Origin: Quercus robur
Taxonomy: Eukaryota; Streptophyta; Magnoliopsida; Fagales; Fagaceae
Assembly: GCF_932294415.1 (NCBI RefSeq)
Contig: NC_065535.1
Coordinates: forward strand, 14,031,282-14,095,281
Direction of reading: 5' to 3'
Length of the DNA: 64,000 bases
The notes beneath the pieces were generated by a model. The model saw nothing but the letters and a program-made list of their open reading frames with translations. It ran no database searches and had not been told where the DNA came from. Positions within the stretch are counted from its first letter, which is position 1; the number at the start of each line of letters is the position of its first letter. Of this stretch, positions 13,615 to 62,434 are shown piece by piece. The translations under genes and the position numbers were made by a program.

Positions 13615-14404
13615 TGTTGGGTTAAAATGAATTGACCTCTTGTAAATTAATTAATTAATTACCCAAGTTAATTAATTATGTTCAATTACATGCAATAGCG
13701 TGGTAGCACAAACAAATCACTGATTATACTAAATGCAACAGAAAATAAATTTGACACAATTGATTTGTTTACAAATGGGGAAAACCACCGAGGCAAAACC
13801 CCACCGGGTGATTTTAAGATCACCACTACCAAGAATCCACTATTATCAATCACAAGCGGTTACAAGTATAAGGAATCTTACCAAACCCTTTGGCCTATCC
13901 CGAATTACCAACCTACAGTTGAACCCTTATCCCAATACCCAATTGGACTTGTATTGTAGCGACAATCTTTTCGTTCAATGCACGAATCCCAGTACATGAC
14001 TACCTCCAGCAACTTGAAGAGGTTGTTTCCTGCAAAATTCTTTAGTTCATCAGCAATGAAGATCAGGAAGCTCCTTGGTCACAAAACTCTTGGCGTAAAG
14101 ACGCAATAGCTTCTTCAGAGAGAATAATGAACTAGGTCACTATCTGCATGCATTCTCCATGTATGACGGCCTTTAAAATAAGCCATATATATGTCTACAG
14201 TTGTGAGAAAAGAAATCCAACATATACACATCAACTTGGGCCAAAAATCATATCTGAAAATTCTGATTCCATATGTCTCGACAAAAACAGCTTGTGTCGA
14301 GTTTCGACTTTAAATCTCGATAGAAGTCTTTCTGTCAAGATTGTTGTTGAGCTTTAATGAACAGCTCTTCTTCACTTGTTTCTTAGTCAAATCTTCATGA
14401 CTTT
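13615..14404 (-). repeat. Element 1 left (3') LTR, first part
   Basis: Matches 43316 onward in the right LTR. It is interrupted at 14404 by element 2 and resumes at 25205. Confidence 0.92.
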
Positions 14405-15015
14405 TGATAATTCCTTGGAGATCAGTAGGTTGATAAGTCTCGAGCGCTGATGATCTTGGGGTTGGATCCTGAAAACAAACACTAAATCAGAGGAGACCGG
14501 TGGGGCCGGCCAAAAGTCCTCCGATGATGAAGTTAGCGAATTTGGAATTCTCAGTGATAAGGAAGTGACTTCTGAAAATAAAATGTCTGAATGCCTTACC
14601 TTCTCATCGAAGAATGCTTATTTAGCATGTGTGGAGCGGTTTTGTTTAATAACCGTTCCTAATGTCGAGGAGTCCGGAGAATTTAGAGGTAACTTCCATA
14701 ACCGTCATGGAAGTTACCTTAGTTGGACGGCTCGTTCCATAGTAGTTAATGGAGAATTTGGCACTTAGTAGTTCAATCCAATGAACTCGTCCATCTTTCA
14801 TTAAGGACGGACGAGACTATCAAGGACGGCTCGTCCTTGTCCAAATGATTAAGGATGGATAAGCTTCCCATGGGATCTTGTCCGTCCAAAGACGGACGAG
14901 GTTAACAAGGACGCTTGGGACGATCACCTCGTTTGCCTAGTTCGCCCTAGCTGGTCTTTCATTGGATGAGCCATATGGACGAGTTCAGGAGTTGGTGTTT
15001 TTTGTGACACCATCA
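14405..15015 (-). repeat. Element 2 left (3') LTR, 611 bp
   Basis: Matches 24598-25199. Contains many GGACGAG/CTCGTCC words. The perfect hairpin GGTAACTTCCAT / ATGGAAGTTACC is at 14688-14718. Confidence 0.93.
14688..14718. repeat. 12-bp perfect inverted repeat in element 2 LTR
   Basis: The arms GGTAACTTCCAT and ATGGAAGTTACC enclose a 7-base loop. The same hairpin is conserved in the right-hand LTR copies (24074-24104, 24871-24901), with one arm base changed in the middle copy. Confidence 0.9.
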
Positions 15016-15028
15016 GTTGCCCCCTTGT
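15016..15028 (-). promoter_or_regulatory. Polypurine tract of element 2
   Basis: On the minus strand, ACAAGGGGGCAAC lies directly before the LTR start TGATGG. This is the plus-strand primer position. Confidence 0.75.
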
Positions 15029-15390
15029 CCATGTGGGTCGTCCAACGAGTTAGGTGAGCTGCCGACACGTCCTTGGACGTACATAACTGGTCAATAAATC
15101 AATGCGCCACGTGTTATTTTTTTATTGGCAACTGATCTCATCAATTTAGTTTTCCAAGGTAGGTGTCCATGTCATTTTCGTATTGGTGGTGTCATTTCAA
15201 ATGCCCAGATCAGCATCCTATAAATAGTGGAATACCTCCCTTAACCCTTCTCATTTCAGAAATTTTCTTCCTTGACATCCATCGTCTAAAGCCTCGTCTA
15301 GGAGTTTCTCTGCATCTAGAGTCCTCTTCCGTCTAGAGCCAGGTATTCTTCTTCTCTCCGTCTTTAGGTTCTGAGTTTCTTTTGTCAAAA

Positions 15391-17618
15391 ATGTCAGTCG
15401 CTTCTTCGTCTACTGATAGCCTTGATAAGGCTATAGACGAGTATTATGAGGATAGTAGTGATAGGTCTAGTTCTAGCAGTACTAGTGACGTTAGTGGAGG
15501 AAGTACGGACGAGAATTATTCTTCTGGGGCCCCTGGGTTTCCTATTGAAGTCGTCCAGGAGCAACTTAGGAGAGCTTCTGGCTCTCAAGCTGGCTCCCCG
15601 TCCAGCGTCCCTCCGTCTAATCCGACGGACGAGGAGGAGACCGTCTTTAGTTGTGCAGTAAGTGTTCATTCCAAGACGGATGAACAAAGACTAAATAATC
15701 TTAAATCTTGGTATCAAATTTCGGACGAGTTTAACCCTAGGCTGCCCGTCCGTGGAGAGTGGTGTTGTAATCCTCGTTTTGGAATAGGCGTCTATAAAGC
15801 TTATTTCCTGGGTGGCCTTAGGTTTCCATTAAATGTATTTGCTAGATAGTTGTTAGTCAAGTTAGGTTTAGGTGTCTGTCAATTTAATCTTAATGCTTGG
15901 AGATTAGTTATCTCCATGCAAATTTTGTGGAGGGAAGTTTTTGGTGGGGATCGTCCTCTCACTGTGGACGAGTTCCTTTATTGTTATAAACCTTCCGAAA
16001 TAAGTCAGTCTGAGGGTTTTTACCAGTTCACTGCTAGGGGGAATAATTGTAGGTTAATCAAGTCCCTAACTTCGTCTGATAGAAAATGGAAGACGGAATA
16101 CATCTTTGTCTCCGATTTCTAGGCGGGGAACCCTGTGGACGTTGGCAGGGATCCCTTTCCTCCTTATACTGGGGACTTAGGGAACCTTCGTCCTGAAGGT
16201 ACGTCCCTTCCCCTTGTTTATCTTTCTCTTTCTATTTGATCTATTTGCAACTTCTAACCTTTGTTTACTCATTGTGTTGTAGCTGCCAAGCGTCTGTCTT
16301 TAAGCAAATTTCATCGTGACCGCGTCCACAGGGCTCGTCTTCACACAGACAGGAGTTTTCGTTCTCTAGTCACTCTTAGACGTTTTTCCAGGTGGGGTTT
16401 GGGTCCTGAGCCATCAGACGAGGCTATTGCACACGAGGTTACTTTGTACAAAAGTAAGTTTTAAGCTAAGGGGTTTTTTTTTTTTTGAAAATTCTATGTT
16501 ATACATTCCTTATCTATTTATTATCTCATTTTAGGAATGTCAACAATGAAAGAAAACAAAGGGAAAGAAGTTGTGGGTGAGGGAAAACGTCTTGAGGCTC
16601 AGCCTCAGGATCGTCCTGATGTTCAAACACAGGTTTGTCCTACAGCTGGGGATAAGAGAAAGTTCTTGCCAAAAAACATTGATTTAGAAGGGCTCCCCAG
16701 TCGTCGAGACAAAAGAGTGAAGCACGGCTCGTCCAAGGTGGTTAAGTCTAAACCTCCCCAGTCTCAACCTTCCATCCAGATAGTTGATGTGGACTCTTCC
16801 ACTCCGATTGAGTCCACCCCGTCTAAAACTCCTCCATCTAAGATTCCTTTGTCTATGTCAACTATACCTGGCTCGTCCCAGCCTTCTACAAACATCATTG
16901 AAAATGAAGATCTAGCTTGGGAGTGTTTTCAGATGGCTGTCTTGGACGAAGAAATAAACATGTGTTATAACATGGGCTTAAAGGAGTTTGAACACTCTGG
17001 CGTCCATAACCTCTTTAAGGTATGTTCATATTCCTTTCTCGTCCTTGTTCATTTAACAATTTTTCTTCGTTTAACCATCCTCTGTTTTTTACCTATTTAT
17101 AGGCCATGTCAAAGTTTATGGCAGCATCCAGACAGGCAATAGAACTGGACAAGACGAGGATCTTGTTGGAGACAAGGATTCAAGAAGTGAATGCCGACTA
17201 CAAAAAATGGGCTAGGGTTGCTGCAAAAGCTAAGGAGGAAGTCACTGAGCATAAAAAGCTGATCGAGGAGCTAAGGACTGATGCACTGGAGAAAGATACT
17301 CGTATTGACCATTTGCAAAAGATGAACAACGAGCTAAGTGCTCGTCTCTCCAAGGCAAAAGAGGACGCTATGGCTGAATTCAAGTCGTCCAAAGTGTAGA
17401 CGAACACCCTGGATCGTAATTATGCAACTGGTTTTGAGGACTTCAGAATGGATGCTATTGAGAACTTCCCTAAAGTTGACTTTAGCTCAATCAAACTTAA
17501 CCTTGCTACTGCCACTAGTTCTCTTATTCAGACCGGTTCTGATGACGTCAATCTAGAAGACGATGCCAGCACTCAGCCACCCCAAGACGACCCCAATGAC
17601 AATGCCCCCTCTTCTTAA
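15391..17618 (+). pseudogene. Antisense gene of element 2 (putative gypsy-type transposon protein), with introns
   Basis: This gene runs opposite to gag-pol inside element 2. ATG at 15391 is followed by an acidic, Ser-rich leader (DSSDRSSSSSTSD), then a globular part (FGIGVYKAYFLGGLRFPL, LNAWRLVISMQILWREVFGG). This resembles the 'putative gypsy type transposon' domain found in antisense ORFs of Tat elements. A basic linker follows (RRDKRVKHGSSKVVKS). The C-terminal part is a coiled coil (17106-17398, RIQEVNADYKKWARVAAKAK). Three introns with GT..AG ends are inferred: 16199-16283, 16454-16534 and 17020-17102. In-frame stops at 15847-15849, 16120-16122 and 17396-17398 break it, and the frame then runs to TAA at 17616-17618. 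Function is unknown. The family call is from memory of similar ORFs. Confidence 0.7.
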
Positions 17619-18507
17619 GGACGAGACTTTCACTCTTAAACAATCTTTGTATTTGTTTTCCTTTTATTTGGTTTTTGTTTGGTCCTCTGTTTTGGGACCT
17701 TTTTATGTAACCAAAGTACACTTGCCTCGTCCATGGTTTTAGGACGGGTTTTTTAAACAATCATTTCAGTTTTTTGACTTAACAAGGGCTTTTGGTCGTA
17801 GGACGTCCACCCTTTAAATGAATGAAAGTTTATTTTCTCTGTATCGACGAGTGCTATTATGCTGTTATTTATATCAACTCCAGCTTTGGCTCGTCCATGG
17901 CGAAAATATATATATTCTTCATATTATTTTGGTTAGTCTAACTCGTCTTTGCAGGCAGTATTTTTATTCAACTTTATTCATCTCAAGACTTACAAACTGA
18001 TTCTACATACTATCCAATTTCTTTTGCCTAACTTTTCACTCGTCCAGAGGTTGGATTGTTTTAGTTGGCTTTTGATTCTCGCCTTTAAATTGGACGAAAA
18101 TGCTCTATAAGGCTTTTCCTCGTCCATGAGTTGGACAAGTGTGCCTAAGTTTTTTCCTTGTTTTACTCAGGAAAATTTAGACGTTACATCTCTGCGTCCA
18201 GAGAATTTATTCGTCTTGAATCTTTCAGGCCCCTTGTGGGTTAGCTTGGACGAAAATAGCATGGAGATTTAAAATTCACACAACATTTTGTACATAACAT
18301 AAATATCGTTTACAAATAAGGCATATGCATACTAATGCCTTTTTATTTAATAAGTACAAACTCCATAACTTCGTCCATAATCATAACACAACATAATAAA
18401 TAATAAAGTAGTAGTATCAAACACAAACAACATCAAACATAAGTAGAACGTAAGTAGACGGACAAGGTCCAAGCTCGTCTATAGTAATACTTCGTCCAGG
18501 TTTACTT
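17619..18507. other. Element 2 non-coding interval between antisense gene and integrase
   Basis: The ends of two converging genes. Contains repeated CTCGTCCATGG and TTGGACGA words but no ORF with support. It should hold the terminators of both transcripts. Confidence 0.6.
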
Positions 18508-21500
18508 TTACTGATAGTACCTTCTCAGGTGCTCCACATTCCAAGGATGTTCCAATTTTCTTCCGTCCAGGGCCTCCAAGTAGTAGGATCCTTGCCTTTT
18601 ATAGTTGATAACTCTATAGGGTCCTTCCCAATTTGGGCCCAATTTCCCATGTGCTGGGTTTTTGGTTGACAAAAAGACCTTTCTCACGACAAGATCTCCT
18701 ATGTTGAAACGCCTTGGCTTCACCATTGCATCATACTGCCTAGCCATGAGGTTCTTGTACTTTGCTGCCCTGTGCTCTGCATCTACCCTTACCTCGTCTA
18801 TCAGATCGAGGTTCAAACGGAATTGCTCCTCATTATCCTTATCTTGATACATCATCACCCTGTGATTGGCCATATGTACTTCTGCAGGTATGACTGCTTC
18901 GCTTCCATAGGCTAGCTTGAAAGGAGTCTCCCCCGTAGGGGTTCTCACTGTGGTCCTGTACGCCCATAGAACACTTGGTAACTCATCTGGCCATACTCCC
19001 TTTGCCCCCTCAAGCCGAGTCTTGATGATTTTCAACAAGGATCGGTTTGCAACTTCAGCTTGGCCATTGTCTTGGGGGTGTGCAGGTAAGGAATAATGAT
19101 TTTGAATTCCGAAGTGTACGCAGAAGTCCTTGAAGAGTGCATTGTCAAATTGTCATCCGTTATCAGACACCAATACCTTGGGCACTCCAAATCTGCACAC
19201 AATGTTCTTCCACACGAAATTTTTCACATTTTGTTGTGTGATATTTGCTAACGGTTCAGCTTCCACCCATTTGGTGAAATAATCGATGCCCACTACTAGA
19301 AACTTCATCTGCCTTGTGCCCAGAGGGAAGGGACCCAAAATGTCTAGTCCCCATTGTGCAAAAGGCCACGGTGCCATCATCAGGGTGAGGTACTCTGATG
19401 GTTGCCTGTGGACGTTACTAAACCGTTGGCATTGGTCGCAGACCTTGACATATGCTTTAGCATCAACTTGCATATTTGGCCAATAATACCCCGCACGGAC
19501 GACCTTGTGGGTAAGTGACCTAGCTCCTGAGTGATTGCCACACGCTCCTTCATGAACTTCTCTCAGTACGTAGTTTGCTTCGTCCGGAGCCAAGCATCTA
19601 AGATAAGGTTGAGAAAAACCTCTCTTGTATAGCACTTCGTCCATAAGAACATACCTAGCCTATCTCACCCTCAACTTCCTAGCTTCGTCCTTCTCTTCTG
19701 ATAGTCGTCCATCTTTCAATTATGATATAATCGGGGTCATCCAATTTCCTCTGCTCTCCACCTGTTGTACTTCTGGGATATCAATACTTGGCATATACTG
19801 AATTTCATCAAATTTGTCCATAGATTCATTTGCTGAGGCTTCTTTTGCTATGGTATCAGCTTCCACGTTCTCTTCCCTTGGGATTTGAACAAAGTCAACT
19901 TTTTCAAATCTTTTCATTAGGCGCATCACCCTACTAAGGTATTTCCTCATCCGTTCTTCCTTTGCTTCATACATCCCATTCACTTGCCCCATGATCAACT
20001 GTGAATCCCCCAAGACGAGTATAAACTTGGCTTCCACAGACTTGGCCAATTCTAGCCCTTTGAGAAGGGCTTCATACTCGACTTCATTGTTAGTTACTTG
20101 GTACTGCAGACGAACCTTTTGTTTCAGTTTGTCTCCTTTTAGGGAATGTAGGACCACACCAATTCCACCTGCATGCCGTGTAGATAAACCATCCACATGG
20201 ACGATCCATCTCTTACTGTCTCCTGCTTCATCATGACTTGGGGTAAATTCCGCAATGAAATCTGCTAGGGCTTGAGCTTTTATGGCATGCCTTGGTTGAT
20301 ATCTAATGTCAAACTTACTGAGCTCTACAGCCCACTGGATTAATCGTCCTGCAGCTTCCAGTCTATTCATTGCCTTCTTGAGCAGATGATCTGTCATGAC
20401 ATTAATGACATGTGCTTGGAAATAATGCCTCAGCTTCCTGGAAGCAGTTATCAATGCGAAGGCTAATTTCTCCATTTGTGGATACTGTCCTTCCGCTTCC
20501 CTCAATGCCTTACTTGTATAGTACACAGGTCTTTGCACTTTATCTTCTTCTCTTATCAATGCTGAACTCACAGCATGCGGGGTTACTGCTAAGTATAAAT
20601 ACAACTCATCTCTCACCACGGACAGACTCAGCAAAGGAGCCATGGTAAGGTATGTCTTCAGGTCTTCGAAAGCTCTCTGACACTCATCGGTCCATTCGAA
20701 TGCTTTTCTAAGAACCTTAAAAAATGGCAAACATTTGTCAGTGGCTTTAGAAACAAACCTGTTAAGTGCAGCAACTCGTCCAGTGAAGGATTGGATTTCT
20801 TTGGTATTTTGCTGAGGCTTCATGTCCAGTATTGCTTGAATTTTATCAGGATTTGCTTCAATTCCCCTGTGGGAGACCATAAGTCCAAGGAATTTCCCTA
20901 ATGATACTCCTAAAGCACATTTGATAGGATTCAGCTTCATGTGATACTGTCTCAGTGTGTCAAATGTCTCCTGCAAGTCATCTAGATGCCTTCCCTCATT
21001 CTAACTATTCACCAGCATGTCATCTACGTAGACTTCCACATTCCGCCCAATCTGCGGACGGAACATGTGGTTGACCAATCTCCGATATGTCGCCCCTGCA
21101 TTCTTTAAGCCAAAGGGCATCACCTTATAACAGAATAAGCCTTGACTGGTGACAAAGGATGTTTTCTCTTGGTCTACCTCGTCCATCTTTATCTGATTGT
21201 ATCCAAAGAAAGCATCCATGAAGCTAAGCAACTTGTGGCCCGCAGTGGAGTCTACCAACTGGTCAATGCATGGCAGCAGGTAACTATCCTTGGGACAAGC
21301 CTTGTTTAAATCAGTGAAATCTACGCACATTCTCCATTTGCTGTTTGCCTTTTTGACCATTACTACATTGGCCAACCAATCCGGATAGTACACTTCTCGA
21401 ATAAACTTCGCCACAATCAACTTTTGAACTTCGTCTTTGATAGCATCATCTCTTTTAGGGGCAAACACCCTCTTCTTTTGTTGCACTGGCTTGGAGGAAG

Positions 21501-22295
21501 GACATACATTCAGACGGTGGGTAATGACACTAGGGTCTATACCCGGCATGTCTTCATGACTCCAAGCAAACACATCAATATTTTTCTTCAAAAATTGGAC
21601 GAGGTCCTTCTTAATCTTTTCTTCTAGATCTGCTCCAACCCTGGTACACCTCTCAGGGTTATTTTCATCCAAGAAAATATCTTCCAATGCTTCGATAGGC
21701 TCTGCTACAACTCTCTTTTCCTCAATATTCATGGCTTGAACTTGTTCGTCCATGGCCAACATGGCCAGGTAACATTCTCTTGCTGTTAGTTGGTCTCCTT
21801 GTACCTGCCCTACTCCGTGTTCTGTTGGAAACTTGACTGATAAGTGGTAAGTAGAGGTAACAGCCTTCCAACTATTTAAAGTTGGTCTTCCAATTATGGC
21901 GTTGTAGGAGGATGAACAATCTACCACAAGGAAGTTCACATTCTTGGTGATTTGTCGTGGGTATGCCCCACTACCATTAATAAGGAAATAGTACCCACGG
22001 GTTGTACCTTCATTCCACCAAAACCTACTAGGGGGGAGTTTACTGGATGGAGCTAGTCTCATCCTAACCTCATCTGCTGAAAAGCTGGATAATATAAAAT
22101 GTCCGCCGAGCTTCCGTTGTCCACTAGCACTCTTCTAGTTGTGTAGTCAGCAATAAGTAAGGTGATGACGATAGCATCATCATGTGGGTGATGAATTCTC
22201 TCAGCGTTTTCATCTGTGAAGGTGTTTGCTTGTTCGTCCATGGACCTTACTCTCGGTGACCGTCCAGAAAGTTGGACACTCTGCACTACCTTCAA
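18508..22295 (-). pseudogene. Element 2 pol: protease, reverse transcriptase, RNase H, integrase
   Basis: Read on the minus strand from 22295. Protease has VLVDNGSSADIL (22059-22295). RT follows after a frameshift near 22060 (21001-22062) with KWRMCVDFTDLNKACPKD, FSYKV-type MPFGLKNAGATY and the catalytic YVDDM. RNase H is at 19720-20976 (HVDGLSTRHAGG, NNEVEYEAL, LGDSQLIMGQ). Integrase has the H2C2 zinc region (HEGACGNHSG, CDQCQRF), the catalytic core (WGLDILGPFP, VLVSDNG, ENGQ-like DNGQAEVANRS) and the C-terminal GPNWEGPYRV (18508-19644). Stops in the same frame interrupt it at 21001-21003, 19720-19722, about 19660 and 19153-19155. Each is one base from a sense codon, so decay is light. Encapsidated polyprotein function is expected for the family, but not possible for this copy. 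Confidence 0.93.
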
Positions 22296-22370
22296 GTATG
22301 TTTTCTTGGACTTGGACGACTGGCCTGTCGAACTTCCTCCTATAATGACTCTTATTTCTCCGAGCGGTGG

Positions 22371-23728
22371 TCATGATGATTCTTCCATCTTCCCTTTCAG
22401 TTTCTCGTCCCTGTGGTCTCGTCCAAGGAAATTCCTCAACTTCCCTTGCCTTATGAGATTTTCAATTTGCTGCTTTAAATCGAACCACTCGTCTGTATCA
22501 TGACCATGATCCCTAAGGAAGCGACAATACTTGTTCTCATTGCACTTATTGGGATCTCCCTTCATTTTCTCCGGCCACTTCAAGGAAGGATCGTCCTTGA
22601 TCTGCATAAGGACCTACTCAAGTGGGATGTTCAAAGGGGTATATTGCCGGTTCCATGCTGAAGAGCCTGGCTTCTTATTATCTCGGTCTTTCCTTTCTTC
22701 CATCCATCCCTTCTTTGGACGAGAGCCTTGCTCGGGATGGCGACTGGGGTTTGCCTCTACTCTCTCAGATCTCTTCCTTTTCTTAGCAATGATCGCATCT
22801 TTTTCATTCATAAAATTTTGAGCCGAATGGATGAGTTCGGCCATGTACTGAGTCTCTTTTTCATAGAGTTTATGTATAAACAAATCCGAATTCACCCCAT
22901 TATGGAAGGCCGCCAATAGGAGCTTATCATCTACTTCGTCCACACTCAGGGCTTCTCTGTTAAAACAGGTGATGAATGATCATAGGCTCTCATTCTCTCC
23001 CTGCTCTATAGTCAACAAGCTGGACGAAGAACGCTTGTGTCTTTGTCCCCCAATGAAATTATTAACAAAAAATTTGCTCAACTCTTCAAAAGAACTTACC
23101 GAATTCGGGGGTATTTTGCTAAACCAAACTCATGTTGAGCCCTTGAGAGTAGTAGGAAAGGCTCTACACATTATTTCATCGAGAACCCCTTGAAGATGCA
23201 TGGTGGTCTTAAAGGTGGCAATGTGATCAAACGGGTCTCGTGTTCCATCATACAAATCCAGAGAAGGCAACTTGAACTTTAATGGTAGAGGGTGACCGTT
23301 GATGGAAGCCGTGAAGAGGGAATCAGTTCTGTGAACCAAATCTTCTATCAGATTCGCTCTTCTCATGTTCTCTTTCATTTCCTCCATGACTTTCTTCATT
23401 TGGTCCATCTCTTCTTTCAAGTGTGGTACCATTCGTGAAGTGGTGCCTCTTAACTGACTTCCAATTCAGTATTCTCTTTATCATCATGACTCTGTGTTTG
23501 TCCCCCTCCTTCACGTTCTTCACGTGTCTACCTTCTCAAATTAATCTCCATTCTTAACTCTTGGTTTTGGCGAGTCAACTCCGCCATTGCGGCCGCCATA
23601 GATTGCACATGTTGGACAGATGATGTCTGCATGACCGGTGCAGATTGGCGATCGCGGTTAGGGTTGCTTGAAGCATCTCTGCTTCCCTAATGGTCTGGGC
23701 TAGTAGCCCTCGATCTAGTCTGAACCAT
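22371..23728 (-). pseudogene. Element 2 gag
   Basis: The start MVQTRSRA at 23728 is followed by stops at about 23685 and 23530. A coiled coil comes next (EEMDQMKKVMEEMKEN), then the retrotransposon gag core (KLPSLDLYDGTRDPFDHI, CRAFPTTLKGS, SLRSFITCFNREAL, LLLAAFHNG). A basic tail leads to the zinc-binding-like segment KYCRFLRDHGHDTDEWFDLK, in which the last expected Cys position is Trp-Phe. Stops also occur at 23130 and 22614. Gag forms the virus-like particle in active relatives. Frame and order relative to pol fit one polyprotein. Confidence 0.88.
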
Positions 23729-23773
23729 CAACCTTTTTTCACGGAAAAGAAAACTGTAAAACAATTTCTGTTC

Positions 23774-23790
23774 CCACAGACGGCGCCAAA
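23774..23790 (-). promoter_or_regulatory. Primer binding site of element 2
   Basis: On the minus strand TTTGGCGCCGTCTGTGGG follows the LTR end AATTATCA. TGGCGCC-type sites are usual for plant Ty3/gypsy elements. Which tRNA fits best was not tested. Confidence 0.75.
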
Positions 23791-24260
23791 TGATAATTCC
23801 TTGGAGATTAGTAGGTTGATAAGTCTCGGGCGCTGATGATCTTAGGGCTAGATCCTGAAAACAAACACTAAATCAGAGGAAACCGGTGGGGACCGGCCAA
23901 AAGTCCTCCGATGATGAAGTTAACGAATTTGGAATTCTTAGTGATAAGGAAGTGACTTTTGAAAATAAAATGTCTGAATGCCTTACCTTCTCATCGAAGA
24001 ATGCTTATATAGCATGTGTGGAGCGATTCTGTTTAATAACCGTTCCTAATGTCGAGGAGTCCGGAGAATTTGGAGGTAACTTCCATAACCGCCATGGAAG
24101 TTACCTCAGTTGGACGGCTTGTTCCATAGTGGTTAATGAAGAATTTGGCACTTAGTAATTCAATCCAATAAACTCGTCCATCTTTCATTAAGGACGGACG
24201 AGACTATCAAGGATGGCTCATCCTTGTCCAAATGATTAAGGATGGATAAGCTTCCCATGG
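23791..24260 (-). repeat. Element 2 right LTR, truncated unit 1
   Basis: Begins TGATAATTCC next to the primer site and matches the LTR up to CCCATGGGAT. It then jumps back to LTR base ~20 through a shared GATC. Confidence 0.9.
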
Positions 24261-24597
24261 GATCAGTAGGTTGATAAGTCTCGAGCGCTGATGATCTTAG
24301 GGCTGGATTCCGAAAACAAACACTAAATCAGAAGAGACCGGTGGGGACCGGCCAAAAGTCCTCCGATGATGAAGTTAGAGAATTTGGAATTCTCAGTAAG
24401 AAGGAAGTGACTTCTGAAAATAAAATGTCTGAATGCCTTACCTTCTCATCGAAGAATGCTTATATAGCATGTGTGGAGCGGTTCTGTTTAATAATCATTC
24501 CTAATGTCGAGGAGTTCGGAGAATTTGGAGGTAACTTCCATAACCGCCATGGAAATTACCTCAGTTGGATGTTTCGTTCCATAGTACTGATAATTCC
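24261..24597 (-). repeat. Element 2 right LTR, truncated unit 2
   Basis: Starts at GATCAGTAGG (lacking the first ~18 LTR bases), stops after GTTCCATAGTA, and is followed by a full LTR. Confidence 0.9.
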
Positions 24598-25199
24598 TTG
24601 GAGATCAGTAGGTTTATAAGTCTCGGGTGTTGATGATCTTAGGGCTAGATCCTAAAAACAAACACTAAATCAGAGGAGACTGGTGGGGACCGGGCAAAAG
24701 TCCCCCGATGATGAAGTTAGCGAATTTGGAATTCTCAGTGATAAGGAAGTGACTTCTGAAAATAAAATGTTTGAATGCCTTACCTTCTCATCGAAGAATG
24801 CTTATATAGCATGTATGGAGCGGTTCTGTTTAATAACCGTTCCTAATGTCGAGGAGTTCAAAGAATTTGGAGGTAACTTCCATAACCGCCACGGAAGTTA
24901 CCTCAGTTGGACGGCTCGTTCCATAGTGGTTAATGGAGAATTTGGCACTTAGTAGTTCAATCCAATGAACTCGTCCATCTTTCATTAAGGACAGATGAGA
25001 CTATCAAGGACGGCTCGTCCTTGTCCAAATGATTAAGGATGGATAAGCTTCCCATGGGATCTCGTCCGTCCAAAGACGGACGAGGTTAACAAGGATGCTT
25101 GGGACAATCACCTTGTTTGCCTGGTTCGCCCTAGCTGGTCTTTCATTGGACGAGCCATATGGACGAGTTCAGGAGTTGGTGTTTTTTGTGACACCATCA
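24598..25199 (-). repeat. Element 2 right (5') LTR, complete unit, 602 bp
   Basis: Full match to 14405-15015, ending CACCATCA at the ACTTT duplication. Confidence 0.93.
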
Positions 25200-25204
25200 A
25201 CTTT

Positions 25205-31892: not shown

Positions 31893-32919
31893 TCAACCAT
31901 ATGAACCCTTCCTCATCCAAACAGAACGATTGTTTGGAATGAGTGTCTCAAGAGAAGTGAGACGAGGGTTGGAAGAATGAGAACCGGAGATGCACATAAA
32001 CAAGGAGGTAAGAGCATTAACCACTTTCTTCAACAACTTACCATTTTCCATCCAATCCGGTTGAGCTTTCAAAGCACAACTTCCAAAAAGCTCAAGTTTC
32101 TCTTTTCTTTTGATTCTCTTAAGAGCTTGAAACTTAGAGCAATGAGGTCTTAGATGACCCAAGGCACCACAATGGTGACACACAATGTGTTTAGGTCTAC
32201 TAGGCTTCTTGGGAAAAGATCTAGAAACATTGTTTTGTTCCCTTTTCAACTTGGAGCATTGAGGTCTTATATGACCGATCACACCGCAATGGTGGCAAGT
32301 TGGAACAAATTTAGATCCATTCAAAACCTTAGGTTAAGACCTAAATGAAGGCTTAGGCTTAAGAGCCTTTTTCTCCACTTTTTGATTTCTTTTGTGTGGA
32401 GGAATGTACACCGATTTGTCCTTTGAGGTAGAACACACAATAGGCGCAAAATCGGGTACCACAACATGATTGCAACAAATATTTTCTTCCATTTTAGCAA
32501 CAGGTTCAGCAATCAAACACTTGGCATGCATCTTAAGAGATTCATTTTCAGATTTAAGATCATCAACAAGTTTGTTAGACAAAACAAGTTTAGCATCCAA
32601 GTTCTTATTTAAACATTCAAACTCTTTCAGCTTTTCAAGAGAAATTTCAGCAAGGTTCTTATATTTTCTCAACCAATTTGTTGGATTCATTGAGTTTAGC
32701 AATCAAATCATCCTTTTCACAAACTAACTTGCTCAAATTCTTTTGAAACTTCTTAGCTCCTTTCTTCAAGAGTTTGTCAACAACACCCATAGATTCAAGT
32801 AACATGTCATCACAATTATGAGGATTAATACTCATAGAGGCATTTTCACAAACACATGGCATGTTACAATCAACAATATCCATAGAAGCATACAAAGCAT
32901 TATCCATGGCAAAACACAC
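31893..32919 (-). pseudogene. Element 4 gag-like ORF (coiled coil + two zinc knuckles)
   Basis: Read from 32919 on the minus strand: an N-terminal Cys-containing stretch, a coiled coil (LSKLVCEKDDLIAKLNESNK; LVDDLKSENESLKMHAK), a basic segment (YIPPHKRNQKVEKKALK), then two CCHC knuckles, CHHCGVIGHIRPQC and CHHCGALGHLRPHC. It ends SVWMRKGSYG at 31893. Two frame changes, near 32680 and 32335, divide it. The N-terminal gag (UBN2-like) part seen in elements 1 and 3 is absent. Zinc knuckles bind nucleic acid in gag proteins. The end after VWMRK matches the end of element 3's gag, where protease would start in full copia elements. Confidence 0.75.
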
Positions 32920-32968
32920 AAGGGGTCAAGGATCACACTTAGGTAATAAAACCAAAACAAGTGTACCC

Positions 32969-32980
32969 GCTCTGATACCA
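32969..32980 (-). promoter_or_regulatory. Primer binding site of element 4 (initiator tRNA-Met)
   Basis: On the minus strand TGGTATCAGAGC lies two bases inside the right LTR, the standard copia primer site. Confidence 0.92.
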
Positions 32981-32982
32981 AA

Positions 32983-34071
32983 TGAAAGTTCAAAAACGTG
33001 TATAAAACACCCTTGAACGTTTAGACCCCCAAATACAAAATAATAAATTCAAGCTTTATGACAAACAACAAGTGTGCGGAAAATGAACATAAGCTATAAA
33101 CAGAATTGGAAATCAATCTAAGCCAATTATAAATCACATCCACAGCAGAAAATAAAAGGCAAAGATAAAGGGAAGAGAGATGAAAACACAAGGACAACAC
33201 ACGATGTGTTATCGAAGAGGAAACCGAAGCCCTCAGCGTAAAACCTCTCCGCCGCCCTCCAAGCGGTGAACAATCCACTAGAAAATACAGTTGGGATACA
33301 TGGACAGCAAAAAACCCTCCAAGCATAATCTACCCAGTGCACCTAAGCCCTCCAAGCTTCTTGCTCCAACGAGGTTGCGCCGAACCTTTTTCTTTTCTAG
33401 CTTCCCGAATTCCGCTACTAGACCGTAGCATCAACCAATGAAGATTGGTTCCTTCCTAACTGCTTCCCAGAAATCCAAACAGCTGTCTCACAGTGATGAT
33501 GATGGTGAGAACCAGGTTTGGTATAATGCCTCTCAAGGATTTGACAATGGAGAGGAAGAGAGTTGAGGAATTTGAAGAGACTCTAATGTATAGATTGTGG
33601 GTGAATCAATCTGGTTTTTCTTTAGGGTTTCTCTCTCAAAATTCTCTCTGGAAGCTCTCTTTCAATCGTGGGTAAAAGGGGTATTTATACTGGAGTGGGA
33701 GAGGAATGTGAAACGTCAGGTTTTACAAAACAGGGGTGGCTCGCGGCTTGACCTCGCGTTTTGACTAAGTCGCGAGTTAACCGTATGGCCAGTTGTCCTA
33801 TTTTGTCCTGTAGTGCTCCAGCTAGCATGACTGTTCATCTTCCAGCATGCTTGGCACGTGTGCTGCTTCTGGCGGCTTGCAGCCGCGAGTCACCCGCGAG
33901 TCCCAGCCGCGAGTCTCTGTTTTCTTGCACACTCTTGAGCAATCTTCACTCTATCTCACTCACTACCCTTACAACAAACCCACCTAAATACAGGGTTACT
34001 AAATGCTAAATTACAAGCAAATTTGGCACAGAATAAAGCCAATTAGATGGTTGAATAAATTCAACCTTACA
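32983..34071 (-). repeat. Element 4 right (5') LTR, 1089 bp
   Basis: Pairs with 27554-28655. It lacks 13 bases (GATCCAGTCGCGA) between short direct repeats GTCGCGAG. Confidence 0.95.
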
Positions 34072-34076
34072 CGCAT

Positions 34077-34503
34077 AATTGGTTAGTCACGTACTAGGAT
34101 TCGTACATCAAAGGGTGGCGTTCATATATTGAAGAGTTCAAAGGTTCTGAAGCGGTAGAAAGTTTCTGCTGTGAGTTCATCTATGGGGATTGTAGAGTCT
34201 AGGGACAAAGGTTTTGTACTAGATCTGAAACTTCTCTTTACTATAGTGGATTGCTTTTTGGGAAGGTTTACAGTGGATTGCTTTTTGGGAAGGTTTCCCC
34301 CCAGGATTTTTACTGTGAAACTGGTTGGTTTCATTGGTTTTCCTGGGTTATCATATCTTGTCTTATTTATTTTTTCCGCTACATGATTTTGACATGATAT
34401 TGATGTTTGTTTGTTTTAACAAGTTTTGTTCATAATAAATCTAATTAACAATTTGGATTTAAAACTTGTTAATTCTATCAATCGGGGTCTAAATTTCCCA
34501 ACA
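34077..34503 (+). repeat. Element 3 5' LTR, second part
   Basis: Continues from 27553 after element 4 and matches 38866-39263. It contains a 24-bp direct repeat (34249-34272 / 34273-34296, GTGGATTGCTTTTTGGGAAG) absent from the 3' LTR. Confidence 0.92.
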
Positions 34504-34505
34504 AG

Positions 34506-34517
34506 TGGTATCAGAGC
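34506..34517 (+). promoter_or_regulatory. Primer binding site of element 3 (initiator tRNA-Met)
   Basis: TGGTATCAGAGC is two bases after the LTR end CCCAACA. Confidence 0.93.
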
Positions 34518-34571
34518 GGGTCCACTCTGATTGGATTAATTTCCTGAGTGCGATCCTTGACCCCCGTTGTC

Positions 34572-36354
34572 ATGGATCGTGGACAATCTCTTTTGATTCC
34601 TCCTTTATTTGATGAAACTAATTATGCATACTGGAAAGTTCGTATGAAAGTTTTTTTGCAGGCTCTAGGTGAACAGGTATGGCAAGCTGTTGAAGTTGGC
34701 TGGATTAAGCCAAAGGAAGCGCTGGTGGATTGGGATGATGCAACAATCATAGCGGCAAATTTCAACAGTAGGGCCTTGAATTCCTTATTTTGTGGGGTGA
34801 CCAATAAGGAATTCAAGAGAATATCATCCACAGAAGTTGCCAAGGAAGCATGGACCATTCTTGAGACCACCTATGAAGTTACCAAGGCAGTAAAGACTGT
34901 GAAGCTTCAAAGACTCATCGGTAGTTTTGAAGAAATAAGGATGGAGGAGGATGAGACCTTTGATGAGTTCTATGCTAAACTCATGGATATTGTGAATTCT
35001 GCCTTCAATCTTGGAGAATCTATTGCGGAATCCAAAATTGTTAGGAAAATCCTTAGGTCCTTACCTGAAAGATTCCACGCCAAGATCACTGCCATCGAAG
35101 AAGACAAGGACATTGATCAAATTCCTTTGACTGAGCTTGTAGGAAACCTTCAAACCTATGAGATGGGATTAGGTTTAATGGGAAAAGGTGGAAAGAGTAA
35201 AAAACTTGGCTCTTAAGGGTATAGAGAAAGAGATTGAGGACTCTGAAAGTGAAGATGAAGATGAAGATGATGATGAGGATGAGGATCTAACCTTCATAAC
35301 TGATGAGATTATCAAGCTTCTTCAATTTAGGAAAAAGGATAAGGGCAAACCTCCTAGGAAATCTAAATCCTCTAGGAAGGGTAAGAATGAAAAACCCCTC
35401 ATCCAATGCCATGAGTGCAAAGGTTTTGGTCATATGAGGATAGAGTGCCCAAACCATCTCATGAAGGAAAAGACCAAGGAATCCAAAGATAAAGGGTTGG
35501 TTGCTGCTTGGAGTGATACTAAGAATGATTCTTCTGATAAGTATGTGGATGAATGTCGTCACGTTATGGCCTTTGCTGCCTCAACCGATAAGGTGATTGT
35601 GAAGAGTGCTAGTGACAGTGAGGATTCTTCTTCTGATGAAGTACCCAAGAAGTTGACCCTTCAGGAAGCCTATGATAAGCTATGCACTGAATTCATAAAA
35701 TCTGAACAGACTTCTCATCTTTGTAAAAAAGAGCTTAATGAGGTAAAAACTGAAAAGGCTGATCTGTTAGTCAAACTAGATGAGACTACAAGATTAGTTA
35801 AGACTCTTGTTGTGGAGAACACCTCATTAGAAGAGAAGTTCAAGAATCTTGAAGTTGAGCTTAATCAAGCTAGAACTCAAATAGAGAGGATGTCTAGTGC
35901 AAAGCTTGATGAGGTCTTGAGTGCTCAAAAGTCTAGTTCTGATAAAATTGGCTTAGGATATGCTGTCTCCTTCGGGCCCTCCTCTTCCACGGCTTCTGGA
36001 TCAAGGACTGCCTTTGTGCCACAATCTGAGAAAGGTAATAAAGGTATGAAATCCAAAACTGCTTTGGCTAATTCTAAATCCTTTGTTAGACCTCATGTTT
36101 GTCACCATTGTGGTGTTTCTGGACACATTCGTTCTAATTGCTTTAAGTTGTATCCTCATAAGCACTTGTTCAAACAGTCACAGGTTTCCTCTCAAGGACC
36201 TACACCTATGTTTGGAGAGTTATTAAAAGCTTTGAGCTTTTTAACTCAATTTCAGGAGAATTCTAATTCTTCTATGTCCTTTAGTAGACATACTAAGACA
36301 CGTGCCTTTTCATCTTCACGGCCAAAGACTCGTGTTGTGTGGATGAGAAAGTAG
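34572..36354 (+). pseudogene. Element 3 gag, nearly intact, no pol
   Basis: Particle-forming protein of a copia-type element. ATG at 34572 opens with MDRGQSLLIPPLFDETNYAYW, the usual start of UBN2-type gag. The helical core includes EEDETFDEFYAKLMDIVNSA and ILRSLPERFHAKITAIEE. An acidic linker (SEDEDEDDDEDED) leads to a first CCHC knuckle CHECKGFGHMRIEC, a coiled coil (KADLLVKLDETTRLVKTL) and a second knuckle CHHCGVSGHIRSNC. It ends RVVWMRK with TAG at 36352. One extra A in the run at 35200-35205 shifts the frame (first part ends 35216, second part open from 35188). Otherwise the ~594-codon frame is open. In full SIRE/Maximus-like copia elements protease follows directly after this point. Here the frame simply stops. 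Confidence 0.9.
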
Positions 36355-38165
36355 CCTAAGACTTAATTGTCTTTTCTATTTGTCCTCTGCTTTAATTCTT
36401 TCTATCTAAAGTGGATTCTCTTTGCTTTATTTCTTATCTGCTTTTGGAATCATACTTTCATGCATCTGCACCTTTCTATCATGCCTTTATGCATATGCAT
36501 CTTTCTTTCATGCTTTCATATTGTTTATTTGTTTTTGTTTAGTTTTTATTTTGTTTTGTTTTCAAAATAAAAATAAAAAGGAAAAATCAGAAAAATACAA
36601 AAATAGTGTGTGTTTTGTGTACATTGGTACTTGTGTACCTTGGATGGCCATTAAAACAAAGTCTTCTAAAACTTTGTATCATTTGTAACTTAGACGAGCA
36701 TCTCTATGCACAACTAAGCAAGTGAGTTTTGTGGCTTGTGTTTGTGATGAGTACGATTAAGTTGTCTCTTAAACTTAACACTCATATCACTCTTTTTGAC
36801 AGGAAGGACTAGAAAATCCTAAGAGAAAGGCATAAATAACCATCTCACCACTGTTGCCCACCAATCATAATATGACACCTGTATGCTTCGGCATAGCAAA
36901 AGTGCAGTGTCAATGACATTTGTGTGCTTAGGCATAGCAAAATTGGAATGTCAAATATCATTGGGTATTTCTTTTCTCTCTTTTATATGCCCATGAATGA
37001 AATGCTTAAAAGAAAAATATGCAAATGAAAAATCAAAAGCAAAAAGATCAAAAATGTTTTAAAAATGATTGTAAGCGTGTATTCTAGGAGATGTGGGAGT
37101 TATAGGATGTACCTCAAAGGTGATAGTCCCCATCAAGCAATTATGATTGTGTGTGAGTTAAAGTGATTTTCTCATATCTCAAATCGTCATAACATGTATA
37201 CATTTATGCAATCTTGCGATGTTTTTCACACACAACACGCAATATTTTTTGCTACTCTTGATACATGTGTAGGTACAATGTGATTTGGCCATCACAAGGT
37301 TTTACTTGTGTTAATGTATGCTCACTAAACTGTCTTGACTTGTTTTTGAAATATAAAATTGGTTAGACTCGTTTAATTTGTGTGTGTTTTGCATCTTTCT
37401 ATTATCTTGTCATCCATAGCATCTTGTTTATTACATTCATGCATTTTTATGGATTTCTTGTACCCCCTTGATAATCTTTGATCATCTTTATGTTTCTCGG
37501 GTGAAGCTTTCTAACTTCTTGTACCCTTTGTCAATCATGACAAAAAATGGGAGAAATTGTGAAGAATATGTGGCTTCTTTCTAAGATTCTACATGTTAGG
37601 GGGAGAAATACATTCCTTGTAAGGGGGAGATGTGTTTCATCTTGTTAGGGGGAGTAGTTTTGGTATGAGAGTAGTCTATCTTAGGCGGAGAGTTAGTATA
37701 GGACCATTTTGTTAGGGGGAGTGTTGATACATTTTGAGGGATGTAGTAAGGATAATATGTATCTTTTCTTTTCTTTCTTTTTAGATACATTACTCTTGTA
37801 CATGAGGTCTTGTGACCATTTATAGACATACATTGTACTTATCTCTTTCTTTATATTGATGTATGTTTTTCTTTCACCTACCCCTTCATGTGTTGTTTCT
37901 TTTCTCCCTTTATACACATGTTTCTTATACTTGTATGCAATCTGTTATTTCTGTTTCACACAAAGATGCCTAGATGAGTTTTGTTTAAAGTGTTTCAGAA
38001 ATACAGGTTGTCAAAGTCTACTTGCCATAAACTCTCTTCTTGCAAAGTTTTTCAAGAGTTTGTGATAGGATAGATTTTATTGTACTCAACAAGTGAATAT
38101 GAGTTAAGTGATTTATGACTTCTCTCATATGTTCATTTGTTTGCTGTGGTTTTGTCACGGATTGC
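36355..38165 (+). other. Element 3 long 3' non-coding region
   Basis: 1.8 kb without a supported gene where pol would be expected. Contains imperfect repeats GCTTCGGCATAGCAAAA / GCTTAGGCATAGCAAAA (36885-36945) and five AGGGGGAG-type motifs (37598-37721). Similar sequence, reversed, flanks the extra ORF in element 1. Confidence 0.8.
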
Positions 38166-38178
38166 CAAAGGGGGAGAT
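38166..38178 (+). promoter_or_regulatory. Polypurine tract of element 3
   Basis: CAAAGGGGGAGAT directly precedes the 3' LTR. Confidence 0.85.
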
Positions 38179-39263
38179 TTTTAGGACATAAGTGTTTCAC
38201 ATTAAGAACATATGTCATGATTTTATGTAATTGGCTTATCCTTTAACAAAACGCACTTTACTTGTAATTGGGTAGATCTAGGATGTGTTTAATACTTCAA
38301 GAAACATGTTGTTCAAGTCTGTATTAAAGTCATGAAGATTGGACCAAGAAACAAGTGAAGAAAAGCTGTTCATTAAAGTTGGACAGATAGCTCGGCAGCT
38401 GCTCAACACCTCTCGACAGCTGCGGATAGATAGCTCGACACCTCTCGATAGCTGGTGAATCGATCGAGAAAGCTTCTGTCTCCTCGACACCTGCTCGATA
38501 GCTGTATCTGTCGAGGTTTAAAGCTCGACACCTACTCGACACCTGCTATCTATCGAGGTTACAAAAATCAGAATTTTCAAATCTGATTTTTGGGCCAGGC
38601 TTTTGTATTTGTGTAGGGTTTCTTTTCTCACAACCCTAGACCTATATAAGGCTTATTTTAGAGGCCGTCACATAAGAGAATATAAGGAGAACATATGCAA
38701 AAGGTGACCGATGCCTTATTCTCTCTGAAAGAAACTACTGTGTCTTTTACGCCTTAGGGTTTTGTAACCAAGTGCTTCTTGATCTTCATTGTTGATGAAG
38801 TGAAGAACTTTGCAACCAACATCTTCTTCTAGTTGGTGATTAAGTCACGTACTGGGATCTGTACAATTAGTTAGTCACGTACTAGGATTCGTACATTAAA
38901 GGGTGGCATTCATATATTGAAGAGTTCAGAGGTTCTGAAGCGGTAGAAGGTTTTTGCTATGAGTTCATCTACGGGGATTGTAGAGTCTAGGGACAAAGGT
39001 TTTGTACTAGATCTGAAATTTCTCTTTACTATAGTGGATTACTTTTTGGGAAGGTTTCCCCTAGGTTTTTTACTGTGAAATTGGTTGGTTTCATTGGTTT
39101 TCCTGGGTTATTATATCTTGTCTTATTTTTTTTTTCCGTTGCATGATTTTGACATGATATTGATGTTTGTTTATTTTAACAAGTTTTGTTCATAATAAAT
39201 CTAATTAACAACTTGGGTTTAAAACTTGTTAATTCTATCAACCGAGGTCTAAATTTCCCAACA
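38179..39263 (+). repeat. Element 3 3' LTR, 1085 bp
   Basis: Pairs with 26867-27553 + 34077-34503. The first bases read TTTTAGGAC rather than TGTTAGGA, so the terminal G is lost. Ends CCCAACA at the CGAAT duplication. Confidence 0.93.
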
Positions 39264-41367: not shown

Positions 41368-43243
41368 TCATTTCCTAGAGTTAAACCTTTGTTCTCGAGG
41401 TGAGGGGGAAGAATTGAAACCGTTCAAGTTTGAAAGGAACATGAGGGCATTGAGAAGATCCCTAAAAGGACCCAAAGATGGTGGAATCTGACCTTGACCA
41501 CCAGATGATAACACACTATTGCTCTGTTGAGTAGCTAACCACTTATAGCAATTTGGATGAGTGTGTCTTGAAGCTCCGCAGTAATGATAGAAATGTGGCT
41601 TCTTTGGTTGAGACTTCTTATTTTTAGCCTTATTGCTCTTAGGGTTTCTAGTCTCTTTCTTCTCTAGCTTAGGGGGTACTCCTAAAATAGATTTGCCTTT
41701 GTCTAGATTGTTCTCACTAGCTATCTCAGTTTTAGTTTCATTATTTTCAACATCATTATCATAAGCAGGTGAGACAAAAACTATTTTACTAGAAAAGGCA
41801 ATATGAGAAGAGTTAGAGAGTTCATACCCCAAGTCGGTTCTGTCAAAAGCTGATTTTTGGAGGTTCAGCATTTCATCTAGCTTTGCACTGGAAGTCCTCT
41901 CCAACTGAACTCAAACTTGGAACAATTCTGCTTCAAGCTTCTTAGTTCTTTCAGCCAAGAAGTTGTTCTCGAACCTCAGTGCTCTAATGGTTTGATTGGC
42001 TTCATCAACCTTTATGGATAGCTCCTCTCGATCTAGGTCCACATCGCTTAGCTTCTTGGTGGCTAGCCTATACAGTTTCCCATGCTTTTCAAAAATCTTG
42101 TACAATTTTGCATAAGCTGTATGGATGTCATCCTGCGTATCCATCTTCTCGAACTCGGATTCCACCAAGTCCTTTTCTTAATCCACTACTTCTACGATCC
42201 CCTCAGTAGGATCCACTATGGCAGAAAAAAGCACTCAAGATTCCCTCGTTGTCACTGTTATCTGACTCAGTCTTAGGCTCAGTATCACTAAAGGTAGCAG
42301 TAAGAACCTTACTTTTCCCAATCAACTTGAGATACATTGGACATTCTTGTTTCATGTGTCCAAAACCTTGACATCAAAAGCACTTTGGTTTGGAGGGAAT
42401 AGTGTACTGACCACCATCCTTAGCATTCTTCTTCCCTCTGTCTTAACTTTTGAATTGAGAAGAATTGGATTGCTTACGGTCCTTGTTAAAACCTTTCACA
42501 TTGGCATTCTTCATGAACTTCTTGAACTGCCTAGTGATGTAGGACTTCATTTTAGAATCTTCATCATTTGAAGACTCATCAGTCTCATTACTTTTGGCCT
42601 TCAATGTCATATTCTTACTTTTGGTTCCTTTTCCAAGTCTAGTCAAACCCAATTCATAGGTTTGCAAGTTGCCAATCAGCTCTGTCAAAGGAATGGTGTC
42701 AATGTCCTTTGATTCTTCAATCGTTGTTATCTTAGCATGAAATCTCTCAGGGAGAGATCTGAGCACCTTTCTCACAATCTTGGGCTTGGGAATATGATCA
42801 CCAAGATTGAATGCTGAGTTCACTATGTCCTTCAACTTGGCATAGAACTCATCAAACGTCTCATCCTCCTCCACCTTTATCTCTTCAAAGCTAGTCGAGA
42901 GCCTTTAGAGTTGTGAATCCTTGACAGCCTTAGTCCTTTCATAGGTTGTCTGGAGGATGGTCCATGCTTCCTTTGCAGTTTTAGTTGAAGATATTTTCTT
43001 GAACTCCTCATTGGTCATCGCATTGAATAGGGCATTCAATGCTCTGCTGTTGAAGTTTGCCGCTTTGATCTTGGCCTTATCCTAATCAACCGGCACTTCC
43101 TTTGGCTTCACCTAGCCAATTTCCACAGCTTGCCAAACCTTCTCATCTAAAGACTGCAAGAAAACTCTTATGCGTACTTTCCAGTATGCATAATCAGTGC
43201 CATCAAATAAATGAGGTATAATAAGAGACTGTCATCTATCCAT
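41368..43243 (-). pseudogene. Element 1 gag (UBN2 type), degenerate
   Basis: Read on the minus strand from ATG at 43243 (MDR*QSL, a stop at codon 4). The core has EEDETFDEFYAKLKDIVNSA and VLRSLPERFHAKITTIEE (42443-42874), clearly homologous to element 3's gag. A knuckle CQGFGHMKQEC lies near 42360. A coiled coil (41911-42168) and a last knuckle-like HYCGASRHTHPNC (first Cys replaced by His or Tyr) follow, and the frame ends FNSRK at 41368. Several stops (about 43130, 43085, 42900) and frameshifts make it non-functional. No pol follows. It is older than element 3's gag by number of defects. Confidence 0.88.
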
Positions 43244-43302
43244 GACAAACAGGGGTCAATGGATCACACAGCAAAGATTAAATTCTAATCAGAGTGTGCC
43301 TA

Positions 43303-43313
43303 CTCTGATACCA
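43303..43313 (-). promoter_or_regulatory. Primer binding site of element 1 (initiator tRNA-Met)
   Basis: On the minus strand TGGTATCAGAG lies two bases inside the right LTR. Confidence 0.9.
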
Positions 43314-43315
43314 CT

Positions 43316-44349
43316 TGTTGGGTTAAAATGAATTGAACACTTGCAAATTAATTAATTACCCAAGTTAATTAATTAGGCTCAATTACATGCAACAGTGTGG
43401 TAGTACAAACAAATCACCAATTATACTAAATGCAGTGGAAAATAAATTTGACACAGGTGATTTGTTTACAAATGGGGAAAACCACTGAGGCAAAAACCCT
43501 ACTAGGTGATTTTAAGATCATCACTACCAAGAATCCACTATTATCAATCACAAGCGGTTACAAGTATAAGGAATCTTACCAAACCCTTTGGCTTATCCCG
43601 AAATGCCAACCTATAGTTGAACCCTTACCCTAATACCCAATTGAACTTGTATTGTAGCGGCAATCTTTCCGTTCAATGCACGAATCCCAGTACGTGACTA
43701 ACCAATGATGCACGAATCCCCGTAGATGACTAAGTCTAGCAACTTGAAAAGGTTGTTGGCTGCAAAGTTCTTCAATTCATCAACAATGAAGATCAGGAAG
43801 CTCCTTGATCACAAAACTCTTGGCATAAAGACGCAGTAGCTTCTTCAAAGAGAATAATGAATGAACTAGGTCACTATATGCATGCATTCTCCATGTATAA
43901 CGGCCTTTAAAATAAGCCTTATATATGTCTAGGGTTGTGAGAAAAGAAACCCAACACATACGCATTAGCTTGGGCAGAAAATCAAATCTGGAAATTCTGA
44001 TTCCGTAAGTCTCGACAGAAACAGCTTCTGTCGAGCTTCAACTTTAAATCTACGCATCAGCTTGGGCAGAAAATCAAATCTGGAAATTCTGATTCCGTAA
44101 GTCTCGACAGAAACAGCTTCTGTTGAGCTTCAACTTTAAATCTCGATAGAAGTCTTTCTGTCGAGATTGTTGTCGAGCTTTAATGATCAACTCTTCTTTA
44201 CTTGTCTCTTGATCAGATCTTCATGGCTTTAACACTTGACTTGAACAACATGTTTCTTGAAGTCTTAAACCCATCCTAGATCTACCCAATTACAAGTAAA
44301 ATGCATTTTCTCAAAGGATTAGCCAGTTACATAAAATATGTCCCTAACA
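43316..44349 (-). repeat. Element 1 right (5') LTR, 1034 bp
   Basis: Pairs with 13615-14404 + 25205-25323. Longer mainly because of a 92-bp tandem duplication at 43960-44143. Confidence 0.93.
43960..44143. repeat. 92-bp tandem duplication in element 1 5' LTR
   Basis: Units 43960-44051 and 44052-44143 both start ACGCATYAGCTTGGGCAG and include the hairpin-forming CTCGACAGAAACAGCTTCTG. The other LTR has one copy. Confidence 0.92.

Positions 44350-62394: not shown

Positions 62395-62434
<40 letters not shown>

Follow-up and report, generated by a model that had tools for sequence, protein, structure and literature searches.

A nest of four LTR retrotransposons in one exon of a decayed cytochrome P450 gene of Quercus robur

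How did more than 30 kb of repetitive DNA come to lie within a single exon of a plant gene, in what order did its parts arrive, and does their arrival account for the present state of the gene? These questions are raised by a stretch of 64,000 bp from Quercus robur (NC_065535.1, positions 14,031,282 to 14,095,281 of the forward strand; hereafter the window), in which positions 13615-44349 hold four long terminal repeat (LTR) retrotransposons, E1 to E4, inside exon 3 of a cytochrome P450 gene, gene A. As a whole, the locus is almost certainly best explained by successive nested insertions into gene A after it had split from a neighbouring P450 copy, D. The results below set out the structure of the nest, the relative ages of its elements and the decay of its host.

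Results

Structure of the nest

The four elements were resolved by comparing the window with itself, and their LTR pairs align at the ends listed in Table 1, as an earlier note on this DNA had proposed. E1 and its guests together measure 30,735 bp, of which about 7.5 kb is E1's own sequence, and exon 3 sequence is present on both sides, so that the note's figure of 30.7 kb inside one exon holds. Its assignment of hosts (E1 in the P450 exon, E2 in an LTR of E1, E4 in an LTR of E3) is likewise confirmed by the element ends and by the uninterrupted target sites described below. The nest had been called four layers deep; because E2 and E3 both sit in E1, we prefer to speak of four elements, and the depth of insertion is three levels on two branches (E1, then E2 or E3, then E4 inside E3). 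The placement of E3 in an open reading frame (ORF) of E1 stands in part: the frame concerned is an extra ORF carrying the PF20167 domain, and the E3 site falls within the corresponding open frame of an E1 relative, L035 (loci fetched for comparison carry L numbers), but in E1 some 60 bp separate it from the domain match downstream, and it lies just past the piece that is open at present.

Each element is bounded by its own 5-bp target-site duplication (TSD), again as previously noted, which is exact for E2, E3 and E4 and identical at four of five positions for E1 (CATAT at 13610-13614, CGTAT at 44350-44354). Random pairs of 5-mers from the window seldom agree (0.15% identical and 2.0% with at most one difference in 200,000 draws), and four such duplications at LTR ends are therefore not due to chance. 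All of the LTRs start with TG and end with CA, with the sole exception of the right LTR of E3, which starts with TT. Motifs resembling a primer-binding site (PBS) and a polypurine tract (PPT) adjoin the LTRs of all four elements (for E1, on the minus strand, the PBS-like AGTGGTATCAGAG and the PPT-like CAAAGGGGGAGAT); these motifs, judged by eye, assign the minus strand to E1, E2 and E4 and the plus strand, opposite to E1, to E3. The tandem duplication in the right LTR of E1 is crossed by no other E1-LTR match among those scored.

Table 1. Coordinates of the nested elements, their host gene and related features in the window.
Feature	Position	Strand	Basis or remark
E1, outermost LTR element with copia-type gag	13615..44349	-	LTR pair, TSD, PBS/PPT-like motifs
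E1 left LTR	13615-14404 + 25205-25323	-	split by E2
E1 right LTR	43316-44349	-	contains 92-bp tandem duplication 43959-44143
E1 gag fragment (Retrotran_gag_2, PF14223)	42446..42904	-	E 1.4e-10
E1 extra ORF, Transposase_32 (PF20167)	26277..26804	-	E 2.1e-18
E2, gypsy-type, within E1 left LTR	14405..25199	-	exact TSD ACTTT
E2 left LTR	14405-15015	-	611 bp
E2 right (5') LTR	23791-25199	-	1409 bp: one full and two partial copies
E2 RVT_1, RT_RNaseH, RVT_3, Integrase_H2C2	19156..22134	-	broken frames; Pfam scan
E3, copia-type gag element, inside E1 at PF20167 ORF region	26867..39263	+	exact TSD CGAAT
E3 left LTR	26867-27553 + 34077-34503	+	split by E4
E3 right LTR	38179-39263	+	
E3 gag (Retrotran_gag_2, PF14223; DUF4219)	34548..35213	+	E 2.4e-23
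E4, youngest, within E3 left LTR	27554..34071	-	exact TSD CGCAT; zinc-knuckle ORF only
E4 LTRs	27554-28655 and 32983-34071	-	
Gene A exon 1	47551..47746	-	frameshift
Gene A exon 2	46826..47068	-	match to L014
Gene A exon 3, first codons, severed by E1	44353..44391	-	match to L014
Gene A exon 3, remainder	13403..13612	-	three in-frame stops
Gene A exon 4	12384..12764	-	one in-frame stop
Gene A exon 5, with heme-binding motif	11559..11974	-	frameshift
Paralogue C, uninterrupted (1-bp shorter) site near 62792	60525..64000	-	self-comparison, exon match
Solo LTR, E1/E3-related	47774..48775		TSD AGAGA 47769-47773 / 48776-48780

Uninterrupted target sites

For each element, the left and right flanks were aligned independently to a copy of the target that has no insertion, with no element rejoined. 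For E1, seven paralogous loci were fetched out of 43 matches, and in six of them (L002 and L004-L008) the flanks overlap by exactly one CATAT, while in the seventh (L003, which is paralogue C) the site is 1 bp shorter; since several of these loci come from one tandem cluster and are near-duplicates, they do not amount to seven independent tests. The exon near 62792, which the earlier note had offered as the pre-insertion site, is indeed uninterrupted but has a 1-bp deletion of its own at the site, and the other paralogues consequently provide the cleaner comparison. Sister LTRs supply the targets of E2 and E4: in the right LTR of E1 the two E2 flanks overlap by the 5-bp site, and in the right LTR of E3 the E4 flanks lie either side of one 5-bp site. 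The flanks of E3 meet on a single 5-bp register in all four E1 relatives tested (L035-L038); two further loci, L039 and L040, were fetched without a full LTR pair and were excluded from this comparison.

Relative ages of the elements

Nesting fixes the order of insertion along each branch, with E1 before E2 on one, and E1 before E3 before E4 on the other. The Kimura two-parameter (K2P) divergences between LTRs follow the predicted order along the nest, with E1 > E3 > E4 and E1 > E2: they amount to 0.0929 ± 0.0109 for E1 (905 sites), 0.0532 ± 0.0098 for E2 (611 sites; left LTR compared with the complete right-hand copy), 0.0526 ± 0.0073 for E3 (1074 sites) and 0.0196 ± 0.0043 for E4 (1089 sites). 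The gaps correspond to 3.1 standard errors between E1 and E3, 3.9 between E3 and E4 and 2.7 between E1 and E2; E2 may have arrived before or after E3. Such agreement is not guaranteed, because about one-quarter of nested elements have a higher LTR divergence than their host element, as reported in PMC7251063.

Decay of the host gene

The P450 gene lies on the minus strand, and Pfam identified the P450 domain in paralogue C. In gene A, five exons, one of them with the heme-binding motif, were delimited by their match to the paralogue L014, in which all five exon stretches are open; following the earlier reading, we take the gene to be of the CYP72A type. As modelled, the E1 site falls between codons 13 and 14 of exon 3 (...FYQSCID / MISQWE...). 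A plus-strand exon in the flanks was considered and rejected, because the P450 runs on the opposite strand and the repeats that begin on the plus strand at 8233 carry glutathione S-transferase (GST) domains.

The nest is not the sole defect of gene A, since tblastn alignments reveal six further lesions, namely the stops in exons 3 and 4 and the frameshifts in exons 1 and 5 (Table 1). The ratio of nonsynonymous to synonymous substitution rates (dN/dS; parts of exons 2-5, stop codons excluded) is 0.91 for A-D, based on small counts (16 synonymous changes), and 0.80 for A-L014, compared with 0.42 for D-L014. By its sequence, gene A is now dead, and because its ratio against D is near 1 while that of D-L014 is 0.42, it seems to have drifted under little constraint for much of its separate life.

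These lesions and the dN/dS near 1 against D would also be expected if E1 had struck a gene that was already dead and so disrupted nothing, a reading that is compatible with successive nested insertions and to which we give slightly less than an even chance; all six lesions could postdate E1, as a single sequence cannot give the order of its lesions.

A solo LTR related to those of E1 and E3 lies 27 bp upstream of the gene A ATG, its low end reading TA instead of TG. In L013 and L014 its site is uninterrupted, with flanks that overlap by 5 bp, although the match of the far flank extends over no more than 45 bp. To judge by these features, it is a fifth insertion at the locus.

Entry of E1 relative to the P450 duplication

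Some observations weigh against the reading of successive nested insertions into gene A. First, the E1 duplication is mismatched at one of its five bases. Second, the counterpart of the E4 target in the right LTR of E3 (38860-38864) reads TGTAC, from which CGCAT differs at three of five positions, all three by transitions. Third, the total divergence of the E1 LTRs, 0.093, exceeds the K2P divergence of gene A from D (0.081) and is about that of gene A from paralogue C (0.097-0.099), which taken alone would make E1 as old as the duplication; only transversions set E1 apart from the paralogue split, and the E1 count is 17 transversions.

Transversion divergence (tvK) is 0.019 ± 0.005 for the E1 LTRs, compared with 0.030 ± 0.004 for A-D and 0.041 ± 0.004 and 0.054 ± 0.007 for A-C. 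The corresponding ratios of transitions to transversions are 3.6 for E1, 9.3 for E2, 5.8 for E3 and 2.5 for E4, against 0.8-1.6 in the host comparisons (A-C and A-D). This excess of transitions in the LTRs would be that expected from deamination of methylated repeats, and it points to an inflation of LTR ages by transitions at this locus, so that total LTR divergence overstates the age of E1. As the tvK of its LTRs is below that of both A-D and A-C, E1 most likely entered after the A-D split.

LTR elements normally do not excise precisely. For this reason, a history in which E1 predates the P450 duplication and was later lost cleanly from the other copies appears very unlikely, even though an LTR divergence as large as that of the paralogues (0.081-0.099) would accord with it: none of the seven paralogues inspected is scarred, six carry the 5-bp site exactly once and the remaining one is 1 bp shorter there, and the excess in E1 lies in transitions, as methylated, deaminating repeats predict. 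An assembly artefact, in which repeats of different loci were joined as may happen in regions so hard to assemble, is less probable still and was rejected on sequence evidence, as every insertion has a TSD and every guest an uninterrupted target elsewhere, LTR divergence rises in the order that the nest requires, and the P450 exons run on in the right order on either side in a window without N. Successive insertion into gene A is retained as the preferred reading.

Coding content of E1, E3, E4 and their relatives

E1 retains a copia-type gag fragment and the PF20167 ORF, E3 has a zinc knuckle besides its copia-type gag, and in E4, the PBS/PPT ends of which resemble those of E1 and E3, zf-CCHC was the only domain found among the ORFs scanned. 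The copia reverse transcriptase (RT) domain RVT_2 was present in none of the 16 ORF pieces scanned from E1, E3 and E4 and in none of the 10 scanned from L035, L036 and L038. Searches by tblastn with six copia RTs of this genome and the gypsy RT of E2 gave no match in the two internal parts of E1, in those of E3 and E4 or inside L035-L038 (E 0.01), although the copia queries form a narrow set (at least 94% identical where comparable) that a distant or decayed RT could escape, which tells against a pol-less reading; one weak match in L037 lies outside the element. These scans and searches gave no sign of an autonomous copia origin for the three elements. Because no RT was detected in them, E1, E3 and E4 probably moved in trans.

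Of the 10 ORFs scanned from these relatives, L035 contributed both gag and PF20167 and L038 gag, and none of the three from L036 contained gag. Match lists show gag and PF20167 together, on one strand and about 4 kb apart, at three more places in the genome. First-look searches of the genome returned 7968 candidates for the E1 LTR, 6462 for the E3 gag, 6384 for PF20167 and 6338 for the E4 LTR; these figures are not copy counts, and only the best 40 to 150 per query were scored. For the E4 LTR, the best 40 of the 6338 candidates are 94-100% identical to it, two of them being E4's own LTRs, and eight further pairs among these 40 matches are spaced 5.3-5.45 kb start to start, compared with 5.43 kb in E4 itself. 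On these figures, the E4 family is judged to be young. At 60043-60253, a further stretch matches the E4 LTR in inverted orientation at about 75%, and a 99-bp tandem duplication (60209-60408) starts inside it.

E2 and its tripled 5' LTR

The domains of E2 (RVT_1, RNase H and integrase) occur in the Ty3/gypsy order, with Integrase_H2C2 above the cut-off and rve below it. A second RNase H domain, of the archaeal type (PF13456, RVT_3, E 2.2e-21), is present, which we take to be a mark of the Tat lineage. Toward its 3' end, E2 has open frames on the opposite strand (15337-15846 and 16489-17139) that matched no Pfam family.

In element orientation, the 5' LTR of E2 consists of a full copy, a partial copy and a second partial copy, followed by the PBS; at one of the inner junctions 4 bp (GATC) are shared, and the other abuts an exact LTR end. 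When this LTR was used as a query, with 40 of 696 candidates scored, only the window's own of the 41 matches scored covered its whole length, and the other 40, two of them from the same E2, end by query base 565. Over the stretch that the LTR copies share, 41 columns are polymorphic, of which 36 are private to one copy, two separate the middle partial copy from the other three and three unite two copies of the right LTR to the exclusion of the left one. As these columns form nearly a star, the extra copies seem to be of roughly the same age as the integration, and duplication of the right LTR after insertion is disfavoured, since most columns are private and the copies are about equally diverged. 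Template switching and self-integration would be candidate routes to the tripled LTR. The compound proposition that E1-type elements form a large pol-less, chimeric and non-autonomous family (a PF20167 ORF of Athila-like kind joined to a copia gag) that spread by borrowing copia enzymes, and that E2 integrated with its 5' LTR already tripled, as an aberrant product of reverse transcription or of self-integration, is put forward as a tentative and rather doubtful one.

Other features of the window

The GST-bearing repeat at 8233-10104 (GST_N and GST_C) is matched at the DNA level by two others, at 52142-54552 and 56599-58925; all three are on the plus strand and alternate with the minus-strand P450 copies, which argues for a tandem GST and P450 unit. 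One P450 copy, B (54001-56700), matches exons 4 and 5 only and at about 56589 gives way directly to the following GST repeat, as unequal recombination might produce. Elsewhere in the window, a LINE-type (long interspersed nuclear element) element at 242-4451 carries endonuclease, RVT_1, zf-RVT and RVT_3 domains in a single frame that one TGA interrupts, and is followed by a run of about 47 A.

Discussion

In the history that we propose, gene A, one of several tandem P450 copies of the CYP72A type, first split from its neighbour D, after which E1, a pol-less copia-type gag element, integrated in exon 3 and generated its 5-bp duplication. The gypsy element E2 later landed in the left LTR of E1, and E3, a relative of E1, later entered E1 in reverse orientation at the extra ORF; E4, from a young family of gag-type elements, then entered the left LTR of E3. 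E1, E3 and E4 were probably mobilised by the reverse transcriptase and integrase of a partner. Insertions may have piled up here because a dead gene and dead elements, under weak selection, make a safe target.

TR-GAG is a named class of LTR elements with gag and without pol. E1 and E3 resemble it in having LTRs, PBS- and PPT-like motifs and gag, with pol undetected by the narrow RT queries; E1 differs in adding the PF20167 ORF, and E4 in having only a zinc knuckle. The same Pfam domain has been reported from a sunflower Athila element, likewise in an additional ORF (PMC11728184); in E1, unlike that element, the ORF accompanies a copia-type gag. E2 resembles the gypsy elements of PMC7264820, which we take to be of the Tat/Retand type, in its RT_RNaseH and RVT_3 domains and in the antisense open frames toward its 3' end, and departs from them in that these frames match no Pfam family and its 5' LTR is tripled.

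Nesting is common among plant LTR elements, with 1491 nested pairs reported from 12 genomes by Jedlicka et al. 2019 (PMC6911290). The nest in gene A is like those described there in having younger elements within older ones and graded LTR ages, and same-family 'autoinsertions' are known from that survey too. It is unlike them in that two of the three internal insertions lie in LTRs, which that survey reports as not commonly targeted, and in that its base is a P450 exon; a literature search found no description of a comparable nest in a P450 exon.

This nest is genuine and its structure clearly resolved, and it is a tidy new example of the well-known, ordinary nesting of plant elements, by which no new class of system is opened. 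It records how one copy of a P450 cluster has decayed, and its known relative insertion order lets LTR ages be checked against both the order of nesting and the duplication of the gene.

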